Assembly (NCBI GenBank): GCA_016290095.1
Contig: JAEESU010000021.1
Location: 1 to 35,661 of the forward strand
Direction: 5' to 3'
Length of the DNA: 35,661 nt
From: Clostridia bacterium
Lineage (GTDB): Bacteria > Bacillota > Clostridia > TANB77 > CAG-508
The notes under the pieces were generated by a model. That model saw only the letters and a list, made by a program, of their open reading frames with translations. It ran no database searches and had not been told where the DNA came from. Positions within the stretch are counted from its first letter, which is position 1. Each line of letters opens with the position of its first letter. Shown here piece after piece: positions 21,926 to 31,470 of this stretch. The translations under genes were made by a program, and so were the position numbers.

Positions 21926-22078
21926 CTCTTCTCCTAATTTATCTCCTATCATCTGCTGAATATTCCGTTTCAATGTTTTAATTTTATCCTTTTTGATTCA
22001 GCAAATTCAACTATGTATGTATATTAATTACATTTTCACGAGAATCATATCATATTTTTCTGCAATTTACAATATAAA

Positions 22079-22104: not shown

Positions 22105-23853
22105 TTATACTTTTAAAATCGTTAATTTTAATTCTGCCAGTTGTTCTTTCGATGGAATACTTGGTGCTTTCATCATTAAATCTTCTGCTTTTCCACTTAA
22201 CGGAAATGCAATTACTTCTCTTATTGTCTCACTTTCTGTAAGAAGCATTAGCATTCTATCAATACCTGGAGCTATTCCAGCATGAGGTGGTGCTCCATAT
22301 TGAAATGCTTCAAACATAGCACCAAATTTTTCTACGATGTATTCCTTTGTGTACCCAACTTTTTCAAAAACTTTGACCATCAAATCTGGATCATTGTTTC
22401 TTACTGCGCCAGATGCTAATTCTATTCCATTACAAACTAAATCATATTGATATGCCATAATTGATAATGGATCACTAACATCTATGCTACCTTTTGGCAT
22501 TGAAAATGGGTTATGACAAAACGTTAATTTATGCCTTTCATCATATTCATACATAGGAAAATCTGTAATCCAACAAAACTCTAATTTATTTTCATCAATT
22601 AACTCTAGTCTTCTTCCTAATTCTGTTCTTACACTTCCAGCTAATTTATCTACTACTCCTGCATAATCTGCAATAAAAAATAAACAATCTCCTTCTTTAG
22701 ATTTGGTCCTTTTTATCATCTCCATTTTTTCTTTTTCTGGTATAAATTTTGCAATTGGTCCTTGAAGGCTTAGATCATCCATTATTCTAAGCCATGCTAA
22801 TCCTTTTGCCTTTAATTCTTTTACTGCATATTCTGTCATTCCTTCAAAAAAACTACGAGGTTTATCTTTTACATCGTGTGTAGATATTATTCTAACAAAT
22901 TGGCCTGCAAATGCTTTTAGTGGAATATTTTTAAAAAGATCTGTCACATCTATAATTTCTAAAGGATTTCTCAAATCTGGTTTATCTGACCCATATTTTT
23001 CCATAGAATCACTATATTTTATTCTTCTAAATGGATATTTTTTAATTTTTTTACAAGAAAACTTTGAAAATGTCTCATAAATTACTTTTTCCATAATCTC
23101 AAAAACATCTTCTTGTGTTGCATATGCCATTTCAATATCAAGTTGATAAAACTCTCCTGGCACCCTATCTGCTCTAGAATCTTCATCTCTAAAACAAGGT
23201 GCTATTTGAAAATACTTGTCTATTCCGGAAACCATTAATAATTGTTTAAATTGTTGTGGTGCCTGTGGCAAAGCATAAAACTTTCCTTTGTGCAGTCTAC
23301 TTGGTACTAAATAATCTCTAGCACCTTCTGGTGAAGATGCTGTTAAAATAGGTGTTTGAACTTCCAAAAAATCTTTTTTTATCATCTTCTCACGCAAGAA
23401 CTGAATAATTCTTGCTCTTAGTTTTAAGTTCTCCCTTAATTTATCTGATCTTAAATCTAAGTATCTGTATTTGAGTCTTAATTCTTCTCTTATTTTTGTA
23501 GTTCCATTAATCTCAAATGGTAAATCTTTTGTTCTTTTACTTAAAACACTTATTTCCTCAATATATATTTCGACTTCACCTGTTTTAAGTTTTAAGTTAA
23601 TAGTGTCTTCAGACCTTTTTCTAACTAATCCATAAACTGTAACAACAGATTGAATCGGAATATGTGAAACAACATCTACATCTCTACTATCAGCTGATGT
23701 AACAACTTGAGTTATTCCATACATATCTCTAATATCAAGAAAAACTAAACCTCCAAAATCTCTAATAGTTTCTACGAATCCTGCTATTCGTACTTTTTTG
23801 CCAACATCATCAAGCGTAATTGAGTCACAATAATGTGTTCTGTACTCTTCCAT
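22105..23853 (-). CDS. aspS: Aspartyl-tRNA synthetase
   Basis: A 582-residue class II aminoacyl-tRNA synthetase of the bacterial AspRS type. It has an N-terminal anticodon-binding OB fold (about 1-110), the class II core with QAPQQFKQLLM (about 198-208), motif 2 as FRDEDSRADR (about 221-230), a GAD-like insertion, and motif 3 as GIAPGIDRMLMLLT near residue 540. It loads Asp onto tRNA-Asp; in bacteria lacking AsnRS such enzymes also charge tRNA-Asn for GatCAB, which cannot be decided here. AGGAGG lies five bases before ATG. It is monocistronic with a T-box leader and its own promoter. In many Bacillota aspS follows hisS, but hisS is not adjacent here. Confidence 0.97.
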   Translation of the reverse strand: MEEYRTHYCDSITLDDVGKKVRIAGFVETIRDFGGLVFLDIRDMYGITQVVTSADSRDVDVVSHIPIQSVVTVYGLVRKRSEDTINLKLKTGEVEIYIEEISVLSKRTKDLPFEINGTTKIREELRLKYRYLDLRSDKLRENLKLRARIIQFLREKMIKKDFLEVQTPILTASSPEGARDYLVPSRLHKGKFYALPQAPQQFKQLLMVSGIDKYFQIAPCFRDEDSRADRVPGEFYQLDIEMAYATQEDVFEIMEKVIYETFSKFSCKKIKKYPFRRIKYSDSMEKYGSDKPDLRNPLEIIDVTDLFKNIPLKAFAGQFVRIISTHDVKDKPRSFFEGMTEYAVKELKAKGLAWLRIMDDLSLQGPIAKFIPEKEKMEMIKRTKSKEGDCLFFIADYAGVVDKLAGSVRTELGRRLELIDENKLEFCWITDFPMYEYDERHKLTFCHNPFSMPKGSIDVSDPLSIMAYQYDLVCNGIELASGAVRNNDPDLMVKVFEKVGYTKEYIVEKFGAMFEAFQYGAPPHAGIAPGIDRMLMLLTESETIREVIAFPLSGKAEDLMMKAPSIPSKEQLAELKLTILKV

Positions 23854-23890: not shown

Positions 23891-24172
23891 CAAAAAATCG
23901 CCCACTGCAAACAAAAATGCAGGGACGAATATAATCCGCGGTACCACCCATATTGAAAGAACTCTTCTTTCCACTCTTTGAAAATTATTTTACTCCAATG
24001 TGTTTCGGTTATGTACGTTTTCTACAAAGGGCTTTCAGCCGGTGACCCTCATTCTCTACTAGAAACCTTTACAGCCTTTCATCTTCATCATAAAATAATT
24101 TTCTAAATTCATCAAAAATTATTATTGCCACTATTGTCTGAATTTTCCATAGTAACCACCTTTCTCGTAATT
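23891..24172 (-). promoter_or_regulatory. T-box leader of aspS
   Basis: The T-box core GGTGGTACCGCGGA is at 23936-23949 on the minus strand. A 13-pair stem I base joins 24091-24103 and 23980-23992. A terminator hairpin CGTCCCTGCA/TGCAGTGGGCG (23899-23927) with ATTTTTT follows and overlaps the T-box sequence, as expected for tRNA-controlled antitermination. The presumed specifier loop reads CCGAAACACATTGGAG (23993-24008). By the usual position the codon is CAC, with AAC overlapping it; GAC or GAT does not appear there. Confidence 0.93.
24112..24150 (-). CDS. Possible Asn-rich 12-codon leader ORF upstream of the T-box
   Basis: At the start of the aspS leader, AAAGGTGG lies five bases before an ATG. 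The following 12 codons read MENSDNSGNNNF and end in TGA just before stem I. Five Asn and one Asp among 12 residues would suit a sensor of Asn or Asp supply, acting together with the T-box. AT-rich DNA favours AAT codons, so chance cannot be excluded. Confidence 0.35.
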   Translation of the reverse strand: MENSDNSGNNNF

Positions 24173-24225: not shown

Positions 24226-24254
24226 TTGAAAAAAAAGCTTTTTTATGGTATAAT
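24226..24254 (+). promoter_or_regulatory. Promoter of secreted-protein cassette 1
   Basis: TTGAAA (24226-24231), 17 bases, TATAAT (24249-24254) followed by TATA. The same arrangement, including TATAATTATA, precedes cassettes 2 and 3. Confidence 0.9.
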
Positions 24255-24262
24255 TATAAGTT

Positions 24263-24333
24263 AAGGGAGAGTTTCCCTTGTCGTTTTCGCCAACCAATCT
24301 AACTACAAAGGAGGTTCACAACAATGGCGAAAA
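24263..24333 (+). promoter_or_regulatory. Structured leader of cassette 1
   Basis: A hairpin AAGGGA-GAGTT-TCCCTT (24263-24279) sits a few bases after the expected transcription start. It is followed by TTTTCGCCA (24284-24292), the exact complement of TGGCGAAAA (24325-24333), which overlaps the start codon. AAAGGAGG lies in the loop between. Pairing could mask the start while leaving the Shine-Dalgarno exposed. The same order of elements is seen at 29987 and 30854. Confidence 0.7.
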
Positions 24334-25061
24334 AGTTCATGGAATTCATGGCACTGGTGATGACGGTGGTTCTCGTAACTACGTTCACTGTCACACCCGC
24401 TCTTGCTCTTCCTCGAGAGCAAATCACTTTTGTCCTCATCGGAGGCGATGGCGATTCACCCGGAAACTTCAATAATCTCTTCAGTCAGACATCTATGGGT
24501 GACCATCTAGATGACCTGTGTACCACCAGATTCGTCGAATCCATTTCTGGAGACTACTCAAATAGCACTGCCCAACAGCAAGCAAGACTCGCCGAAAGGT
24601 ATCTGTCTAATGCTACAGGGTATCGTTTTCTGGCGGCTTACAGTCACGGTGGCCAATCTGCATATTTCGTTAATCTGGAAAATGTTAATGAAATCTTTCT
24701 TTTGGACGCTTGTGCAAAGATTCAAGGAATATGCAACAATCCTGACACATGTGGTGACGTCTGGTCTAAGTGGGTAATTTCAGCAGCCGCTTCTGGGGTT
24801 ACGGTACATATCTTTGCCACAGATGGTAAACGTGATATCTCCAGAGCTTCCGTAAATGCAGTCAACCTGATTTACAGATATTCCAATAGTGGATATCACA
24901 AAAAAGGCATTTCTATCATTAATGTTGGGAATGGTAATTATCAGGTTCTTGTAAACGGAATGAGTGCTGGAAATATTGAAGCAGTTTGCATCGGCGGAGA
25001 TCATGGACAAGCATGTATCAACTCAGCAAACTACGTATTCGACGCAATCCATCGATTCTGA
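24324..25061 (+). CDS. Secreted alpha/beta-hydrolase-like protein (cassette 1)
   Basis: A 245-residue exported protein. The signal peptide (basic MAKK, hydrophobic core, ALA before LPREQ at 29-30) is clear. The mature part has a Ser-nucleophile-like elbow AAYSHGGQSAY (Ser107), EIFLLDAC (Asp128, Cys130), VHIFATDGKRDIS (Asp167/Asp171) and CIGGDHG (His227) near the C-terminus, in the order and spacing of an alpha/beta-hydrolase triad. A His108/Cys130 dyad of caspase-like type was considered but is less likely. The region from residue 100 resembles the proteins at 30042 and 30909. AAAGGAGG precedes ATG. Codons are G+C-rich (CTC, GTC, GCC), unlike aspS and sortase next to it. No family name is recognised; an extracellular esterase-like role is inference. 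Confidence 0.85.
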   Translation: MAKKFMEFMALVMTVVLVTTFTVTPALALPREQITFVLIGGDGDSPGNFNNLFSQTSMGDHLDDLCTTRFVESISGDYSNSTAQQQARLAERYLSNATGYRFLAAYSHGGQSAYFVNLENVNEIFLLDACAKIQGICNNPDTCGDVWSKWVISAAASGVTVHIFATDGKRDISRASVNAVNLIYRYSNSGYHKKGISIINVGNGNYQVLVNGMSAGNIEAVCIGGDHGQACINSANYVFDAIHRF

Positions 25062-25067
25062 GGACAA

Positions 25068-25099
25068 GGCCCGCAGCAATGCGGGCCGTTTTATTTATT
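25068..25099 (+). terminator. Terminator of cassette 1
   Basis: GGCCCGCA and TGCGGGCC pair perfectly around GCAA, followed by GTTTTATTTATT, seven bases after the stop codon. Confidence 0.92.
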
Positions 25100-25141
25100 G
25101 ATTTTTTCTATTTATAGTTATAATATATATAGGTGAATTTT

Positions 25142-25255
25142 ATGGAAGAATCTTTTAATAAAAAATAACTATTTAAGATATTCATTTTATTATTTGTTCC
25201 AGTTGTCATTTTTAAACTAATACAAAATGTTAATTATAATATTTACTATAAATAA
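25142..25255 (+). pseudogene. Decayed small membrane-protein ORF before the sortase gene
   Basis: From an ATG with AGGTGA upstream, the frame reads MEESFNKK, meets TAA (25166-25168), and continues in the same frame for 28 codons as LFKIFILLFVPVVIFKLIQ and so on to a second TAA at 25253-25255. The continuation is a clear membrane anchor following a basic N-terminus, like the start of the sortase gene that follows. It looks like the remnant of a truncated sortase-like or anchor gene broken by a nonsense change. A short real peptide starting downstream is less likely. Confidence 0.45.
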
Positions 25256-25303
25256 CAACTAGACATCTGTTTAAAAAAAATTTATAATTATTATGGTGAT
25301 ATA

Positions 25304-26119
25304 ATGAAAGAAAAAAAAGAAAATGGAAAATTAAAATTATTTATTTTAATATTTAGAATAATATCTCTTATAATTATTGCTATATGTGTTTATATTTTAT
25401 ACTTGTGGCATTTAGATAATTCTCAAAATAAATCTATACAAGAAAATCTTGAAAATAAATATATTAAAGTTACTATAAACCATGAACAAAATAGTGATGA
25501 GTTTTCCCCAATTTATACAGAATCTGTTGATGAAAATGGATTAAGCTTAGAGCAATTTCAAGTTGATTTTGATGCTCTTATAGAACAAAATTCGGATACA
25601 GTAGCTTGGGTAAGAGTACCTGATACTAATATTAGTTATCCTATTGTACAATCTAGTGATAATAGTTTTTATTTAAACAAAAATTTCGATAAACAAAAAA
25701 ATGGAGCTGGTTGGATTTTTGCAGATTATAGAAATAATTTTGAAAAACTTGATAAAAACACAATTATCTATGGGCATAATCGAAGAAATGGCACTATGTT
25801 CAGTAATCTAAGATATTATTTAGATGAAGAGTTTTGTGCTGATATTAATCATAAATTTATTAACTTTAATACGAAAAATAGTGCATATTTAGCAGAAATT
25901 TTTTCTGTTTATAAAATATCTTCAAATAATGTGGATTTACCAAATAATTTTACAACAATTACTCAGCTAGAAGATAAACTAAATGAATGGAAATCAAATA
26001 GTATATATGATTTCCAAACTGATGTAACTACTAGTGATAATTTATTATCTTTATATACATGTGACAATAATACTACATACAGAATACTAATTCATGCAAA
26101 ACTAATTCCTTTAGATTAA
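25304..26119 (+). CDS. srtB: Class B sortase
   Basis: A 271-residue membrane-anchored transpeptidase that attaches surface proteins to the cell wall. One N-terminal anchor (about residues 11-35) precedes a sortase fold with AWVRVPDTNISYPIVQ (101-116), catalytic His158 in IIYGHN, Cys253 in LLSLYTC and Arg260 in TTYRILIHA. The order and the helix-rich insertion between His and Cys fit class B. GGTGATATA precedes ATG. It lies directly before the cysteine-repeat surface protein, but that protein shows no sorting signal I can recognise, so its substrate may be encoded elsewhere. It ends with the terminator at 26132-26163 and is monocistronic. Confidence 0.92.
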   Translation: MKEKKENGKLKLFILIFRIISLIIIAICVYILYLWHLDNSQNKSIQENLENKYIKVTINHEQNSDEFSPIYTESVDENGLSLEQFQVDFDALIEQNSDTVAWVRVPDTNISYPIVQSSDNSFYLNKNFDKQKNGAGWIFADYRNNFEKLDKNTIIYGHNRRNGTMFSNLRYYLDEEFCADINHKFINFNTKNSAYLAEIFSVYKISSNNVDLPNNFTTITQLEDKLNEWKSNSIYDFQTDVTTSDNLLSLYTCDNNTTYRILIHAKLIPLD

Positions 26120-26131
26120 TATACTTTGTAG

Positions 26132-26163
26132 AAAATAATCCTTATATAAGGATTATTTTTTTG
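26132..26163 (+). terminator. Terminator of the sortase gene
   Basis: AAATAATCCTTA and TAAGGATTATTT form an almost perfect palindromic stem followed by a T-run, 13 bases after the stop codon. Confidence 0.85.
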
Positions 26164-26181
26164 TTCATATATTAAATTATG

Positions 26182-26211
26182 TTGATTTATTATGTAAATT
26201 TGTGGTATAAT
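26182..26211 (+). promoter_or_regulatory. Promoter of the cysteine-repeat surface protein
   Basis: TTGATT (26182-26187), 18 bases, TATAAT (26206-26211), about 50 bases before ATG. Confidence 0.75.
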
Positions 26212-26261
26212 ATAAGTGATGGCACAAATTTTCTACTGTATTATTATAGGAGGAAATAGTT

Positions 26262-28094
26262 ATGAAAAAAATCGTATATAAACAATTGTTTATATTCATC
26301 TTTATGTTAGGATTTATTATCCTATCAACTCATGAAGTTCAAGCCAAAATTACAATTAAATCTATTACTTATGACACAAAAACAGTATGTTCTCATTCAT
26401 GGGTTAAAACAAGAGTTACAAAAAACCCTACATGTACTTCAACTGGAACAGCATTATACACATGTTCTAGATGTAGAAAAACAAAAACACAATCTTTACC
26501 AAGTTTAGGTCATAATTATCAAACAAAATCTTCTACTGCCTCAACTTGCACAACATATGGATACAGACTATTACGTTGTTCTAGATGTGGTTCTCAAAAA
26601 ACAGAATCTTTATCTTTAAAAAATCACAACTACACTGCTCAAAAAGCAGAATCTAAATATCTTAAATCTATAGCAACTTGCAACTCTCCAGCTGTATATT
26701 ATAAGAGTTGTACTATGTGTGGTAAAAAAGGCAGTTCAACTTTTACTTATGGTCAAAAGCTATCACATGTCTACAAAATATCTCAATCCCAAATTATAGC
26801 GCAAGCAACCTGTCATTCTAAAGGTTGCCGATTAAATACATGTATATTATGTGGTAAAAAAGTATCAGAAGAAATCGCTATGCTTTCACATAAATATACT
26901 CGAACTGCTAAAAACGAATATTTGAAGTCTATTGCAACATGTTCTTCTCCTGCTATTTACTATACAAGTTGTAGTTTATGTGGTAAAAAGGGTACTTCAA
27001 CTTTTACTTATGGTGATGCATTAGGTCATAATTATCAAACAAAATCTTCAAGAAATTCAACTTGCACACAAAATGGATATAAAATAATAGTATGTTCAAA
27101 TTGTGGTTTGATAAAAAGTGAAGCTTTACCATTAAGTGAACATGCGTATTCTCAAAAAGTAGATCCTATATACTTAGTGTCTGAAGCAAGCTGTACCTCT
27201 CCAGCCATATATTATGAAAGCTGTACTATGTGTGGTGAAATAGGAGATTCAACTTTCACTTATGGAGATACAATTGAGCATAATTATATAGATGAAACCA
27301 AGATTTCAGCAACATTAACTAAAGATGGAAGGGTTATAAGAACCTGTTTAAACTGTGGAGACACGATAGTAGAAACTCTTAATTCTTTTGCAAATTATTT
27401 AAAAAGTAAAAATATTCCTATAAACATATCTGGTGGTTATAGTACTTCAAGTGCATTTAATTCATATTCTAATGGTTTTTATATTGCATTTAGTAATGGT
27501 GGAGCTAGTTTAAAGGATGCAGGAAGTCTTACTTCAAGAAGAGGTAATTTAATTCTCGTTGATGCAATTCCATATGTAGGAAACCTTTCAGCATCTGAAA
27601 CAAGTAAATATTATTCTGATGTTCCGCCTAATCAAACTGCTGAAAATAATGGTAAAGTAAGAACTGCAAGCCAAGCTGCTAGTTCTACACAATACCTTTT
27701 AACAGAAGTTGGTAGCAAAAAAGATTATATAATGGTAGCAACTACAGATACTAGTCAATCTACAATAAGTATTACTGGCCAATTCTTCCAACAAAGTATA
27801 GAATATTTTGCATCAGGCGAAGGTTCAATACAAGATGTAGGAAGTAATCTAGTAAGCATAGAAGTAACAGGATCATCTATTATTCCAGGTAACGCAAACG
27901 CAACAAGTACATTCTATACTGTTACTTATGATAACGGACATCAGCTTCTATTAGAAATTGTTTCTTTAGATGGAGTTCGACATGATCAAATGAGAGGATC
28001 ATTAGGCGTTAATGGTGAAAACAATTATTCTGGATTTATTGAGGATAGAATAGAATCATTTGGTGACTTTAATAATTCTAATGAACCGTCTTAA
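26262..28094 (+). CDS. Secreted protein with eight Cys-pair repeats and a unique C-terminal domain
   Basis: A 610-residue exported protein. Signal peptide residues 1-28 end VQA before KITIK. Residues 45-372 hold about eight repeats in which a TC...GY/YY...C..CG unit (four cysteines) ends in H-N/K/A-Y. Short units (about 45-85, 86-121, 169-209, 256-293) alternate with longer ones ending STFTYG (122-168, 210-255, 294-339). Such Cys-pair repeats occur in surface proteins of gut Bacillota and look like zinc-ribbon or disulfide modules. Residues 380-610 form a separate Ser/Gly/Asn-rich beta-type domain that I do not recognise. No LPxTG-like signal or membrane anchor follows. AGGAGG lies nine bases before ATG. 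Its position behind the class B sortase suggests a surface role. Confidence 0.9.
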   Translation: MKKIVYKQLFIFIFMLGFIILSTHEVQAKITIKSITYDTKTVCSHSWVKTRVTKNPTCTSTGTALYTCSRCRKTKTQSLPSLGHNYQTKSSTASTCTTYGYRLLRCSRCGSQKTESLSLKNHNYTAQKAESKYLKSIATCNSPAVYYKSCTMCGKKGSSTFTYGQKLSHVYKISQSQIIAQATCHSKGCRLNTCILCGKKVSEEIAMLSHKYTRTAKNEYLKSIATCSSPAIYYTSCSLCGKKGTSTFTYGDALGHNYQTKSSRNSTCTQNGYKIIVCSNCGLIKSEALPLSEHAYSQKVDPIYLVSEASCTSPAIYYESCTMCGEIGDSTFTYGDTIEHNYIDETKISATLTKDGRVIRTCLNCGDTIVETLNSFANYLKSKNIPINISGGYSTSSAFNSYSNGFYIAFSNGGASLKDAGSLTSRRGNLILVDAIPYVGNLSASETSKYYSDVPPNQTAENNGKVRTASQAASSTQYLLTEVGSKKDYIMVATTDTSQSTISITGQFFQQSIEYFASGEGSIQDVGSNLVSIEVTGSSIIPGNANATSTFYTVTYDNGHQLLLEIVSLDGVRHDQMRGSLGVNGENNYSGFIEDRIESFGDFNNSNEPS

Positions 28095-28100
28095 ATAACA

Positions 28101-28132
28101 AAACAACCCGCAAACATGCGGGTTTGTTTTTA
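28101..28132. terminator. Bidirectional terminator
   Basis: AACCCGC (28105-28111) and GCGGGTT (28118-28124) pair, extended by AAACA/TGTTT, with T-runs both ways. It separates the surface-protein gene from the convergent ligase gene. Confidence 0.88.
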
Positions 28133-29842
28133 TTCTTTAGTTATTCTTTTGATTTCTTCATGTCTTTTAATCTTTGCTGTAGTCGTTTTTATAAATTCTT
28201 CTTTGGTTAATATTAGGTTTTTAATATATTTATATATTGGTAATGACTGATTTATTTCTTTTATTTTTTCCCAAACCATTTTCTCTATTTCCTGTTCATC
28301 TACATTTGGATAATTTTCTTTAACATATTCTTCATCATATTGAACTTTAACAGATAATAATAAATCATCATCTTTTGGAAGACCAAATACCATACAATCT
28401 TTTACAATATCTAGTTTATTTATTAAGAATTCTAATTCTTCTGGATAAATATTTTTACCATTTTTTAGAACTATTACATTCTTTTTTCTTCCTGTTATAA
28501 ATACAAATCCATCTTTATCAATATAAGCTAAATCTCCTGTGTAAAGCCATCCATCTTTTAATGTATTTGATGTTGAAATATCATCTTCATAATATCCCAT
28601 CATTACATTTGGCCCTTTTGCAATTAACTCTCCTATACCCTCTTCATTTTTGTCAATTATCTTTACTTCAACACTCGGCATTGGAAAACCTATTGATCCA
28701 TAATTTCTATATTTGTAATTCTCTGCAATAAGAACTGGAGATGCTTCTGTTAATCCATATCCTTGAACTGTTAAAATTCCAAGTTCATTAAATCCTTTTT
28801 CAACTTCTTTATCTAGCGCTGCTGCACCACTTATTACAAAACGAAGTCCACCTAATTGATCAATTATTGATTTATAAACTTTTCTTCTTACATCAATATG
28901 AAGTTTTAACAAAAAATTTGTAAATACTTTTGCAACTTTTACAATTTTTGTTTTTCCTTGTCTTTCTATTTCTTGATTTAATTTCTTATAAATATTTTCA
29001 ATTAGTAATGGTACACCAACAAAAAATGTTACACCATACTCTTTTAAGTTTTGAGCTATATATCTTAAACCATCAGGAAATGCCGTTGCTAAACCGGAAC
29101 TAAGCATTATTAATTGACCAGTAGATCCAAATGTGTGATGTAGTGGCAAAAATGCTAAATTCACATCTGTTTCTCTAAAATCTTCTACTAATTGCATATC
29201 ACTAATATTTCTTGCTAAATTATATTGTGAAAGCATTACAACTTTTGATTCTGCAGTTGTTCCTGATGTAAAAACAAGCTCAGCAAGTTCTTTATCTTTT
29301 ATTTCAGCATTCAAATACCTCTGATTTCCACTTTCAAATATCTTTTTACCGTTTTCTTTAATTTTCAATAACTCTTTGAATTCTTCTGAAGAATCCATAG
29401 AAATATATTCTCTTAAATTTGTTTTCCCATTTGCTCTTATTTCTTTTAATTGTTCTTCATATTTTGTATCGAAAATAATTGCATCTGCTTTACTTCTTAT
29501 TAATGATTTTTCAAATTCATCAAATTTTAAATCCTTGTCTAATGGAACTGCTACTATTCCTCCTAGAAGTAATGCTATAAAACTTAGCACCCACTCATAT
29601 CTATTCTTAGAAATAATAGCAACTCTTTTTCCTTGTAATCCTAAATTAAACAAACCTGTTCCCAGATAATTTACTTCATCTAAAAACTCTTTATAAGTAA
29701 TGTCTTGATATGTTACTTCTTCTCCATTTTTATGTTTTAATTTAAAAGCAACATTATTAGGATATTGATTTACGGAATAATAAATAACCTCTCTAATGTT
29801 ATCAAATGTAGGATATTCAAAAAAAGTCTCATCTTTTTTCAT
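28130..29842 (-). CDS. AMP-forming acyl-CoA synthetase-like protein
   Basis: A member of the ANL (AMP-binding) superfamily, most like long-chain fatty acid CoA ligases; 570 residues from the start I choose. Seen: the P-loop FTSGTTAESKVVMLSQYNL, LPLHHTFGSTGQL, GYGLTEASPVL, WLYTGDLAYIDKDGFVFITG and a hinge with GRKKNVIVLKNGKNIYPEEL. The P-loop has Ala where Gly is usual (TTA for TTG), which occurs in some members. The start must be ATG 29842, with GAGGTGA eight bases upstream: the in-frame ATG at 29878 lies inside the -10 box of the promoter at 29877-29905. It would activate fatty acids for lipid synthesis; no acyl-carrier gene is nearby. It is monocistronic. Confidence 0.9.
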   Translation of the reverse strand: MKKDETFFEYPTFDNIREVIYYSVNQYPNNVAFKLKHKNGEEVTYQDITYKEFLDEVNYLGTGLFNLGLQGKRVAIISKNRYEWVLSFIALLLGGIVAVPLDKDLKFDEFEKSLIRSKADAIIFDTKYEEQLKEIRANGKTNLREYISMDSSEEFKELLKIKENGKKIFESGNQRYLNAEIKDKELAELVFTSGTTAESKVVMLSQYNLARNISDMQLVEDFRETDVNLAFLPLHHTFGSTGQLIMLSSGLATAFPDGLRYIAQNLKEYGVTFFVGVPLLIENIYKKLNQEIERQGKTKIVKVAKVFTNFLLKLHIDVRRKVYKSIIDQLGGLRFVISGAAALDKEVEKGFNELGILTVQGYGLTEASPVLIAENYKYRNYGSIGFPMPSVEVKIIDKNEEGIGELIAKGPNVMMGYYEDDISTSNTLKDGWLYTGDLAYIDKDGFVFITGRKKNVIVLKNGKNIYPEELEFLINKLDIVKDCMVFGLPKDDDLLLSVKVQYDEEYVKENYPNVDEQEIEKMVWEKIKEINQSLPIYKYIKNLILTKEEFIKTTTAKIKRHEEIKRITKE

Positions 29843-29876
29843 GTTTTTAGTCACCTCATATCTAGTTTTCAAAAAC

Positions 29877-29905
29877 ATTTTACAACACTTTCATTTTAAA
29901 GTCAA
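29877..29905 (-). promoter_or_regulatory. Promoter of the acyl-CoA synthetase-like gene
   Basis: TTGACT (29900-29905) and TAAAAT (29877-29882) on the minus strand are 17 bases apart. Because the -10 box overlaps the upstream in-frame ATG, it decides for the start at 29842. Confidence 0.85.
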
Positions 29906-29949
29906 TGTTAAGCAAGAAGCAAAAAGCATGTCACGCCATACTTAAAAAC

Positions 29950-29978
29950 TTGAAAATAAAACAAAAATCTGGTATAAT
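29950..29978 (+). promoter_or_regulatory. Promoter of secreted-protein cassette 2
   Basis: TTGAAA (29950-29955), 17 bases, TATAAT (29973-29978), followed by TATA as in cassettes 1 and 3. Confidence 0.9.
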
Positions 29979-29986
29979 TATATGTT

Positions 29987-30057
29987 AAGGGAAGAGTTTC
30001 CCTTGTTGTTTTCGCCAACCAATACATAAGGAGGTAACATTATGAATATGGCGAAAA
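29987..30057 (+). promoter_or_regulatory. Structured leader of cassette 2
   Basis: The 5' hairpin is AAGGGAA-GAGT-TTCCCTT (29987-30004). TTTTCGCCA (30009-30017) is the complement of TGGCGAAAA (30049-30057), here seven bases inside the coding region. AAGGAGG (30028-30034) lies between. The CGCCAACCAAT stretch is identical to that of cassette 1. Confidence 0.72.
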
Positions 30058-30680
30058 ACGTAGCTAAGAGATTTGTATCTCTGCTTCTGGTGCTTTGCAC
30101 CCTCATGCTCTGCACCTCGTACGCGTTTGCTGAACAGTCTAAAACTGAAAATTCAGCGCACTTCCTCAATGTCTCAATTTATGGTCTCAATTACTCTAAG
30201 CGCGCATATGCTTACAAATTTATTAGCAGACATGCGCCCGATACAATCTTTGATTCTGAGAATATTTATGGACTGGAATGTACTGAAAACTGGATTATGC
30301 TGTTTAACTCCGAACCTGGAGACTCATTTGTTTCAGATGAAACTCCTGATGTATTCTTCTCTGTTGACTCATGTGTTGGACCATATACAATGTCCGAAAG
30401 TACATGGGCTGCTTATCTTTTAAAACTCGCATCAAAAGGTTGTGCCGTATACGTAGTCTACTCTGACGAAGATACAGTGGCTGCAAAAATGAACCGAAAA
30501 GCCGCAATCAAGTTAGAAGAATATGCAGAAATGAATGAGAACGTAAAAAAAGACCACAATATTTATCGAGTTGAAGGCGATGGTACTGTAGGTTCTATTA
30601 CTATCTTCCATTTAACTTCAGAAGAAGAATGCTACAAAAAGTCTCTGTCACAAGCTGTAAGTCTCCTCTGGGCTAAGTAA
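30042..30680 (+). CDS. Secreted paralog of cassette family (cassette 2)
   Basis: A 212-residue exported protein with a signal peptide ending AFA before EQS (residue 30). From residue 82 it parallels the protein at 30909: ENWIMLFNSEPGDSF (Ser90 at the nucleophile position of the protein at 24324), VFFSVDSC (Cys111), TWAAYLLKLASKG, VYVVYSDEDTV (Asp142/Asp144), KMNRKAAIKLEEYAE and ITIFHLTSEEE (His190). A residual Ser-Asp-His set is thus possible, but the elbow is altered (NSEPG). AAGGAGG lies seven bases before the first ATG; a second ATG six bases later is less well placed. Codons are G+C-rich compared with the ligase gene. Function is unknown; an extracellular binding or enzymatic role is inferred from export only. 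Confidence 0.85.
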   Translation: MNMAKNVAKRFVSLLLVLCTLMLCTSYAFAEQSKTENSAHFLNVSIYGLNYSKRAYAYKFISRHAPDTIFDSENIYGLECTENWIMLFNSEPGDSFVSDETPDVFFSVDSCVGPYTMSESTWAAYLLKLASKGCAVYVVYSDEDTVAAKMNRKAAIKLEEYAEMNENVKKDHNIYRVEGDGTVGSITIFHLTSEEECYKKSLSQAVSLLWAK

Positions 30681-30687
30681 ACGCAAC

Positions 30688-30730
30688 ATGTGCGCTCATC
30701 AAACTGGTGAGCGCACATTTATTTATTACT
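30688..30730 (+). terminator. Terminator of cassette 2
   Basis: ATGTGCGCTCA and TGAGCGCACAT form a perfect 11-pair stem with a nine-base loop, followed by TTATTTATT. Confidence 0.92.
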
Positions 30731-30816
30731 AATATTATTCTTCTTAAACTATATTTTTTTCTTCAATTCAACTTAATACGCTTATACCCTCCATAGTATA
30801 TCATTTTCCTCAAAAC

Positions 30817-30845
30817 TTGAAAAAATGCCATATTTTTGATATAAT
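30817..30845 (+). promoter_or_regulatory. Promoter of secreted-protein cassette 3
   Basis: TTGAAA (30817-30822), 17 bases, TATAAT (30840-30845), followed by TATA. Hexamers and spacing are identical to cassettes 1 and 2. Confidence 0.9.
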
Positions 30846-30853
30846 TATAATCT

Positions 30854-30923
30854 AAGGAATGTTTTTCCTTGTTGCTTTCGCCAATAAAATGCAAAAGGAG
30901 GCATCACAATGAAAAAGGCGAAA
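30854..30923 (+). promoter_or_regulatory. Structured leader of cassette 3
   Basis: The 5' hairpin is AAGGAA-TGTTT-TTCCTT (30854-30870). TTTCGCC (30876-30882) is complementary to GGCGAAA (30917-30923), shorter by two pairs than in cassettes 1 and 2. AAAAGGAGG lies between them. The hairpin keeps its pairing while its sequence differs from the other two copies. Confidence 0.65.
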
Positions 30924-31418
30924 AATTTTTCTTGGAGATTGGTATCTCTGATCATGGTGCTGAACATACTCCTGCTTGGTGCTACTCCCGCGTTTGCTGA
31001 AGAAGTTAATGATTCCTTCAAAAAAGGCATGGAAAACTGGTTGGTCATTTGTAATTGCGGACCAGGGACTGAATTATCTTTAGAAACAGAGCCTGAACTA
31101 TACTGCTTTATTGATGCATGTTTAGGTCCTGCCGATACATCTGGTCATTCATGGGCTGAGCAACTTGTAAGCCTAGCAGCTACTGGCAAGCCTGTGTATG
31201 TTTTTTATTCAGATGCCGACACAGTTCCTGCAAAGCTGAATCGAATAGCAGCTATTTGGCTAGAAAAAATGGCCGAAGACTCATCCGATATTACAAAATC
31301 CCTCAATGTTTACTTTGTTATTATTGATGGGAAAATTGGAACAATTAATCTTTTCCACCTGCCTTCTCAGGAAGAAGCTCTTCAAAAAGCTGCTGAGGAA
31401 CTTGCAAACATTCTGTAA
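30909..31418 (+). CDS. Secreted paralog of cassette family, short form (cassette 3)
   Basis: A 169-residue exported protein. The signal peptide ends AFA before EEV (residue 30), so the mature part is only about 139 residues and begins near the family's first shared strand. It reads ENWLVICNCGPGTEL (Cys50 at the nucleophile position), YCFIDACLGP (Asp69, Cys71), SWAEQLVSLAATGKPVYVFY, SDADTVPAKLNRIAA (Asp102/Asp104) and INLFHLPSQEE (His150). It is clearly a paralog of the 30042 product and probably arose by tandem duplication, with loss of most N-terminal residues between signal and core. AAAGGAGG precedes ATG by about seven bases. An unpaired alpha/beta-hydrolase half-fold could not work alone, so partner binding or a different fold is possible. 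Confidence 0.85.
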   Translation: MKKAKNFSWRLVSLIMVLNILLLGATPAFAEEVNDSFKKGMENWLVICNCGPGTELSLETEPELYCFIDACLGPADTSGHSWAEQLVSLAATGKPVYVFYSDADTVPAKLNRIAAIWLEKMAEDSSDITKSLNVYFVIIDGKIGTINLFHLPSQEEALQKAAEELANIL

Positions 31419-31438: not shown

Positions 31439-31470
31439 GCGCTCACCGTAATACGTGAGCGCCTTTTTAT
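31439..31470 (+). terminator. Terminator of cassette 3
   Basis: GCGCTCAC and GTGAGCGC pair around an eight-base loop, followed by CTTTTTATTTT. It may also help end rpoC transcription, although the T-run on that side is short. Confidence 0.88.

Follow-up and report, generated by a model that had tools for sequence, protein, structure and literature searches.

We analysed a 35,661-nucleotide stretch of DNA from a Clostridia bacterium (assembly GCA_016290095.1, contig JAEESU010000021.1), referred to below as the window. It is one whole contig (C26) of an assembly of 1.5 Mb in 30 contigs that is 90% complete. Three genes on its forward strand, g1, g2 and g3, encode proteins with predicted export, and each is preceded by a promoter and RNA leader of the same layout. 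In all three units, which begin at positions 24226, 29950 and 30817, TTGAAA-N17-TATAAT-TATA is followed in identical order by a 5' hairpin, TTTCGCCA, AGGAGG and GGCGAAA. The elements named in the initial annotation, with their positions and order, were all borne out in the sequence of the three leaders. AGGAGG is a Shine-Dalgarno (SD) sequence by its letters in 3/3 leaders, and its use by ribosomes is predicted. The elements of the leaders are as follows:

24226..24254, + strand: copy 1 promoter, TTGAAA-N17-TATAAT (11/12, TG before the -10 box)
24262..24280, + strand: copy 1 5' hairpin (fold and alignment)
24285..24292, + strand: copy 1 TTTCGCCA (sequence)
24309..24314, + strand: copy 1 Shine-Dalgarno AGGAGG (sequence)
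24326..24332, + strand: copy 1 GGCGAAA, complement of TTTCGCC (sequence)
29950..29978, + strand: copy 2 promoter (sequence and pattern scan)
29986..30005, + strand: copy 2 5' hairpin (fold and alignment)
30010..30017, + strand: copy 2 TTTCGCCA (sequence)
30029..30034, + strand: copy 2 Shine-Dalgarno AGGAGG (sequence)
30050..30056, + strand: copy 2 GGCGAAA (sequence)
30817..30845, + strand: copy 3 promoter (sequence and pattern scan)
30853..30871, + strand: copy 3 5' hairpin with one compensatory pair (fold and alignment)
30876..30883, + strand: copy 3 TTTCGCCA (sequence)
30896..30901, + strand: copy 3 Shine-Dalgarno AGGAGG (sequence)
30917..30923, + strand: copy 3 GGCGAAA (sequence)

The three leaders themselves were used to build a model (R1) that spans promoter, hairpin and TTTCGCCA; it gave them scores of 98.9, 94.1 and 93.0 bits, which are high partly by construction. 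The next-best site scored 15.2 bits in the window and 27.3 bits in the own genome. Being of common descent, the three copies do not count as independent observations. A leader peptide was looked for by eye, and no start-to-stop frame was kept in all three leaders. Downstream of the leaders lie the following genes and terminator-like sites:

24324..25061, + strand: gene g1 (P0001, 245 aa), predicted from its N-terminus to be exported, perhaps alpha/beta-hydrolase-like
25068..25087, + strand: g1 terminator-like site (pattern scan)
30042..30680, + strand: gene g2 (P0002, 212 aa), predicted from its N-terminus to be exported (sequence, BLASTP)
30688..30718, + strand: g2 terminator-like site (pattern scan)
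30909..31418, + strand: gene g3 (P0003, 169 aa), g2 paralogue with predicted export (sequence, BLASTP)
31439..31462, + strand: g3 terminator-like site (pattern scan)

The hydrolase label of g1 is our assumption from the motif AYSHGG; no Pfam match was obtained at cut-off. BLASTP revealed homology between g2 and g3 (E 7e-39), g1 and g3 (E 2e-6) and g1 and g2 (E 0.006). Because a g2/g3 profile matched g1 weakly (probability 6%, E 0.006), the membership of g1 rests mostly on its match to g3. We conclude from these comparisons that g1, g2 and g3 are one paralogous gene family, which had been overlooked: the leaders, initially described as dispersed copies, are better read as parts of a single family with homologous downstream genes. 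A mobile or dispersed leader element was considered and rejected because the three downstream genes are paralogues; no genomic site beyond these three leaders exceeds 27.3 bits.

The G+C content at third codon positions of g1, g2 and g3 is 0.40, 0.36 and 0.33, compared with 0.11-0.16 in ten other window genes. Among 53 genomes of the genus, P0002 matched one, which was the own genome, and the family query A2 matched 1 of 291 class genomes and 1 of 398 phylum genomes, again the own genome each time. The family was not found in plasmids (P0001, P0002 and P0003), in phages (P0001 and P0002) or, by searches tuned to close relatives, in viral contigs. At 25304-28094 the window encodes a class B sortase (TIGR03064, 173 bits) and then a 610-aa protein in which repeated Cys motifs were seen by eye; Pfam gave no match for it at cut-off. 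When stretches from five relatives were compared with 15 window proteins, only one (G001) was found to keep a neighbour gene: there, an acyl-CoA-ligase-like gene (82% identity) lies directly beside the sortase (60%), and g1, g2, g3 and the 610-aa gene are absent from the match list of those 18 kb. The ligase-like gene was the sole match in the stretches of the other four. Since the codon usage is foreign and the family was seen in the own genome only, we conclude that this lineage probably acquired it from another microbe; loss in the relatives is the alternative.

The leader has apparently persisted while the genes behind it, which themselves look acquired, diverged strongly. At identical residues of the mature proteins, the same codon is used in 15/36 (g1-g2), 17/37 (g1-g3) and 21/54 (g2-g3) cases, a measure for which the chance level was not computed; coding divergence appears large because so few of these residues share a codon. 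From the hairpin through TTTCGCCAA, 25 of 32 gap-free columns are identical in all three leaders (one gapped column omitted), whereas this is so for 6 of 17 columns in the spacer between the -35 and -10 boxes. As far as three sequences allow, the leader is probably under constraint, and because the kept blocks adjoin a diverged spacer, the pattern argues for selection on the blocks rather than for one recent copying. In the hairpin, we counted seven pairs per copy. Six are invariant, and in copy 3 one has changed on both sides from G-C to A-U, a compensatory change that agrees with the earlier observation that this hairpin stays paired despite changed bases. In 3/3 leaders the first base of the hairpin is the eighth after TATAAT, approximately where the mRNA is expected to begin. 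When the 5' end is folded in isolation, this hairpin is the best structure in every copy.

The reading we favour, to which we assign about an even chance, is that a strong promoter, an aprE-like 5' hairpin and a strong SD form an ancestral expression unit kept by three foreign-looking paralogues. Each paralogue would retain the family's ancestral combination of a strong sigma-A-type promoter, a short 5' untranslated region and a strong SD. By analogy with the layout of the aprE leader, the hairpin at approximately the mRNA 5' end may shield the transcript against 5'-dependent decay, and this shielding would give long-lived mRNAs for exported proteins. TTTCGCC:GGCGAAA would be a weak clamp closing the loop that holds the SD, and thus a by-product or mild tuner of initiation, not a switch. 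The leader has probably been kept for its aid to expression and is not established as a new RNA switch. Of the regulated leader proposed in the initial annotation, the conserved promoter, the 5' hairpin and the strong SD ahead of exported proteins stood, but the switch at the start codon did not become established. So far, what we describe is mostly ordinary expression signals retained in a small orphan gene family.

Several points weigh against this reading. The Fisher test that compared the block from the hairpin through TTTCGCCAA with the promoter spacer (p 0.004) used block borders picked after the alignment was seen. Gapped identity over the 120 upstream bases, in gap-rich alignments, was 0.59, 0.73 and 0.67 (g1-g2, g1-g3 and g2-g3), which is not far below the 0.86, 0.75 and 0.73 of the 72-base promoter-leader region. 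A 53-base block shared by g1 and g2 is 94% identical, and short gene conversion could also give such a block. The placement of the mRNA 5' end at the hairpin is itself a prediction. The isolated hairpins of copies 1, 2 and 3 were equalled by 22, 20 and 8 of 200 shuffles. There is one compensatory pair in three sequences, and covariation of the hairpin is not established because 163 of 500 column shuffles did as well. In the longer fold the hairpin of copy 3 is broken, and a pattern scan calls the hairpins of copies 1 and 2 terminator-like. Taken together, the readings of the hairpin as an RNA stabiliser, as a DNA dyad and as a terminator-like element are inseparable here.

The complementarity of nine, nine and seven pairs between TTTCGCC and the start region, reported for copies 1, 2 and 3, was confirmed as Watson-Crick runs. 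In the 35.7-kb window, TTTCGCC occurs on the plus strand only at the three leader sites and on the minus strand only at the three start sites. The nine-pair run was equalled in 15 (copy 1, p 0.0075) and 5 (copy 2, p 0.0025) of 2000 shuffled leaders; for the run of copy 3, p was 0.40. With G-U pairs allowed, the p values were 0.08, 0.11 and 0.82 (copies 1, 2 and 3). For copies 1 and 2 the minimum-energy fold contains the clamp. The fold of copy 3 that has both hairpin and clamp lies 1.6 kcal/mol above the best one, and the clamp probability in this copy is 0.06-0.08. We compared the energy of the leader-start duplex over 24 gene starts, hand-picked from 41 open reading frames. Copy 1 ranked first, copy 2 shared second place and copy 3 shared fourth; in copy 3 the strongest duplex was not the plain clamp. 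The gene start at 21973 (minus strand; a TTG start from the list of open reading frames) gave an equally strong duplex (-13.6 kcal/mol, 8-pair run).

No covariation was found in the clamp by eye in the three sequences: seven core pairs are invariant, and two outer pairs are lost without compensation in copy 3. The clamp reaches the start codon (U and G) in copy 1 only; in the other two copies the AUG is part of the clamp loop, four (copy 2) and five (copy 3) bases ahead of the 3' arm. In the predicted fold of copy 1, two SD bases and the U and G of the AUG are covered; in copy 2 a small helix within the loop takes up the AUG, and in copy 3 a different fold covers the SD. The helices over SD or AUG are not shared between the copies. 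GGCGAAA doubles as Ala-Lys codons of the signal peptide, as the initial annotation had cautioned. The clamp is possible in all three leaders, on the evidence of pairing and predicted folds, and is not established. Regarding the masked start codon claimed earlier, folds that cover part of the SD or AUG were found for each copy, but a switch is not established, there being no covariation and the AUG being in the clamp only in copy 1.

We consider it quite unlikely that TTTCGCC:GGCGAAA is a start-region switch, which would keep the initiation region closed, to be opened by a factor, by temperature or by the ribosome. Such a switch is suggested by the 9, 9 and 7 pairs with the seven core pairs intact in 3/3 copies, by the restriction of the 7-mer and its complement to these sites in the window, by a best fold that includes the clamp in copies 1 and 2 and by the partial cover of the initiation region predicted in every copy. 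It is made less likely by the loss of two of nine pairs in copy 3 without covariation, by the low clamp probability in that copy (0.06-0.08, 1.6 kcal/mol above the best fold) and by the unlike helices over SD and AUG. Moreover, another gene start, at 21973 (minus strand), gives an equally strong duplex, and GGCGAAA also codes for Ala-Lys of the signal peptide. A new cis-acting RNA, confined to this orphan exported family, in which the 5' hairpin stands beside a clamp of leader and signal-peptide codons that loops out the SD and ties initiation to the signal-peptide sequence, appears improbable to us. If the clamp were real, the start of translation would be linked to signal-peptide codons.

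At the DNA level, the inverted repeat AAGGRA-N5-6-TYCCTT just after the -10 box could be the operator of a dimeric regulator with a three-gene regulon, the RNA hairpin being incidental. Repressors often bind dyads at such promoter positions. The dyad just downstream of the -10 box is near-perfect, and neither of its forms (loops of 3-6) was met in the window away from the three promoters. The change on both arms in copy 3 suits an operator dyad no less than a paired RNA stem. An operator, however, leaves the conserved TTTCGCC unexplained. In addition, the promoter with dyad arms occurred outside the own genome in the genus at the level of a reversed control, and no regulator gene was noticed among nine proteins scanned, the remainder of the contig not having been scanned for one. 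We regard this operator as unlikely. Plain ancestry or local gene conversion, by which the 5' parts were copied among the genes and serve only as an ordinary promoter and ribosome binding site, strikes us as rather unlikely. It would fit the adjoining positions of g2 and g3 and a 53-base block in which copies 1 and 2 are 94% identical. For g2 and g3, the same codon is kept at 12 of 15 identical residues of the signal peptide versus 21 of 54 in the mature part (p 0.005), as if the 5' part were younger; this retention may come from local gene conversion or from a constraint on the opening codons. One tract copied across the whole unit, however, is unlike the observed pattern, in which the spacer diverged between kept flanking blocks.

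We searched for further leaders in samples of relatives and under stricter filters, so that weak copies could escape. With R1, nothing above 36.3 bits was found outside the own genome in 53 genomes of the genus (50 had some match at E <=1, own included), 7 of 195 family genomes had a match at E <=0.01, own included, and among 291 class genomes the own genome alone matched at E 0.001. The best match outside the own genome (L144, 41.6 bits; G065, another genus of the family) has a promoter and, at roughly the corresponding position, a hairpin, without TTTCGCC. At L144:1501-1590 the hairpin comes immediately after the promoter, and an SD-like stretch precedes a gene that we take, from a motif, to be flavoprotein-like. 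This is a possible independent 5' hairpin leader, and it suggests that hairpins close to a promoter are not confined to the g1-g3 family. The best 10 of 19 genus loci were promoter matches, some with unlike hairpins. Copy 2, used as a DNA query, had matches in 21 of 145 family genomes, own included, and the matches listed outside the own genome were pieces of 24-49 bases. The loose pattern TTTCGCCA-N-AGGAGG occurred in 122 of 391 class genomes and, as a reversed control was similar by eye, was uninformative. Lack of covariation and of copies in relatives, which the initial annotation had named as counting against its proposal, is largely what these samples gave; but the gene family was also not found in those relatives.

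The leader pattern matched eight stretches in genome contigs, none with promoter and AGGAGG by eye, and approximately nine were expected by chance (hand estimate). In viral contigs it gave no match, and a shorter pattern gave six; inspected by eye, none had the layout, and one of the contigs ended at the match, so that its downstream part was unseen. The 95-base leader of copy 1 had no match in plasmids or phages. Rfam 15 gave no match at gathering score in the window, which is a weak test, as the T-box beside copy 1 also lies below its gathering score; at a lax threshold, the matches of copies 1 and 2 were all far below gathering.

This T-box leader (23918-24097, minus strand; E 7.7e-14) precedes an aspartyl-tRNA-synthetase-like gene (22105-23853), and its 64.2 bits fall below the Rfam gathering score of 93, so that a default scan misses it. 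A promoter-like site at 24207-24179 (minus strand) stands back to back with the copy 1 promoter, with 18 bases between them. Elsewhere in the window, two TATAAT boxes on opposite strands face each other across an imperfect dyad (757-805). Among the relatives' loci, L072 and L073 carry promoter-like sites near 1501-1576, with hairpins and T-runs within a few bases that are terminator-like. L014:1522-2178, from another genus of the family, encodes a protein with a signal-peptide-like start whose SD stretch is almost identical to that of copy 2, probably by chance.

No description of this leader or gene family was found in the literature searched, to which this statement is limited. In RNA thermometers and other start-masking leaders, leader bases are complementary to the start region. 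The present leaders differ from these in that they have no covariation, no Rfam match at gathering score and a clamp that takes in the AUG in copy 1 alone. The Vsp and Vpma lipoprotein families of Mycoplasma consist of paralogues with alike upstream parts and signal sequences and diverged bodies; unlike these, g1, g2 and g3 each have their own promoter. The ompA and papA stem-loops of Escherichia coli precede exported proteins, and their decay machinery differs (RNase E). The likeness to our leaders, as far as the available parts of the sources go, would be a 5'-terminal stem-loop that prolongs mRNA life, and we claim no shared sequence. The statement in the initial annotation that no RNA with this layout has been described was too strong, because the aprE leader of Bacillus subtilis, in the available parts of the sources, is a precedent. 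These report that removal of its 5' stem-loop lowered mRNA stability from >25 to ~5 minutes and that the SD also matters (PMC11805744). According to a review, long stretches of B. subtilis mRNA can be stabilised by an element close to and upstream of them at the 5' end, be it a hairpin, a ribosome binding site or a bound protein (PMC3997798). A clamp of the TTTCGCC:GGCGAAA type is not mentioned for aprE in these parts, and the likeness is one of layout, the sequences not having been compared. The aprE leader, ahead of a gene for an extracellular protease, has a stem-loop at the mRNA 5' end together with an SD that contributes to stability (PMC11805744, PMC3997798); the ancestral expression unit that we favour would share this layout, its hairpin being predicted to lie at about the mRNA 5' end.

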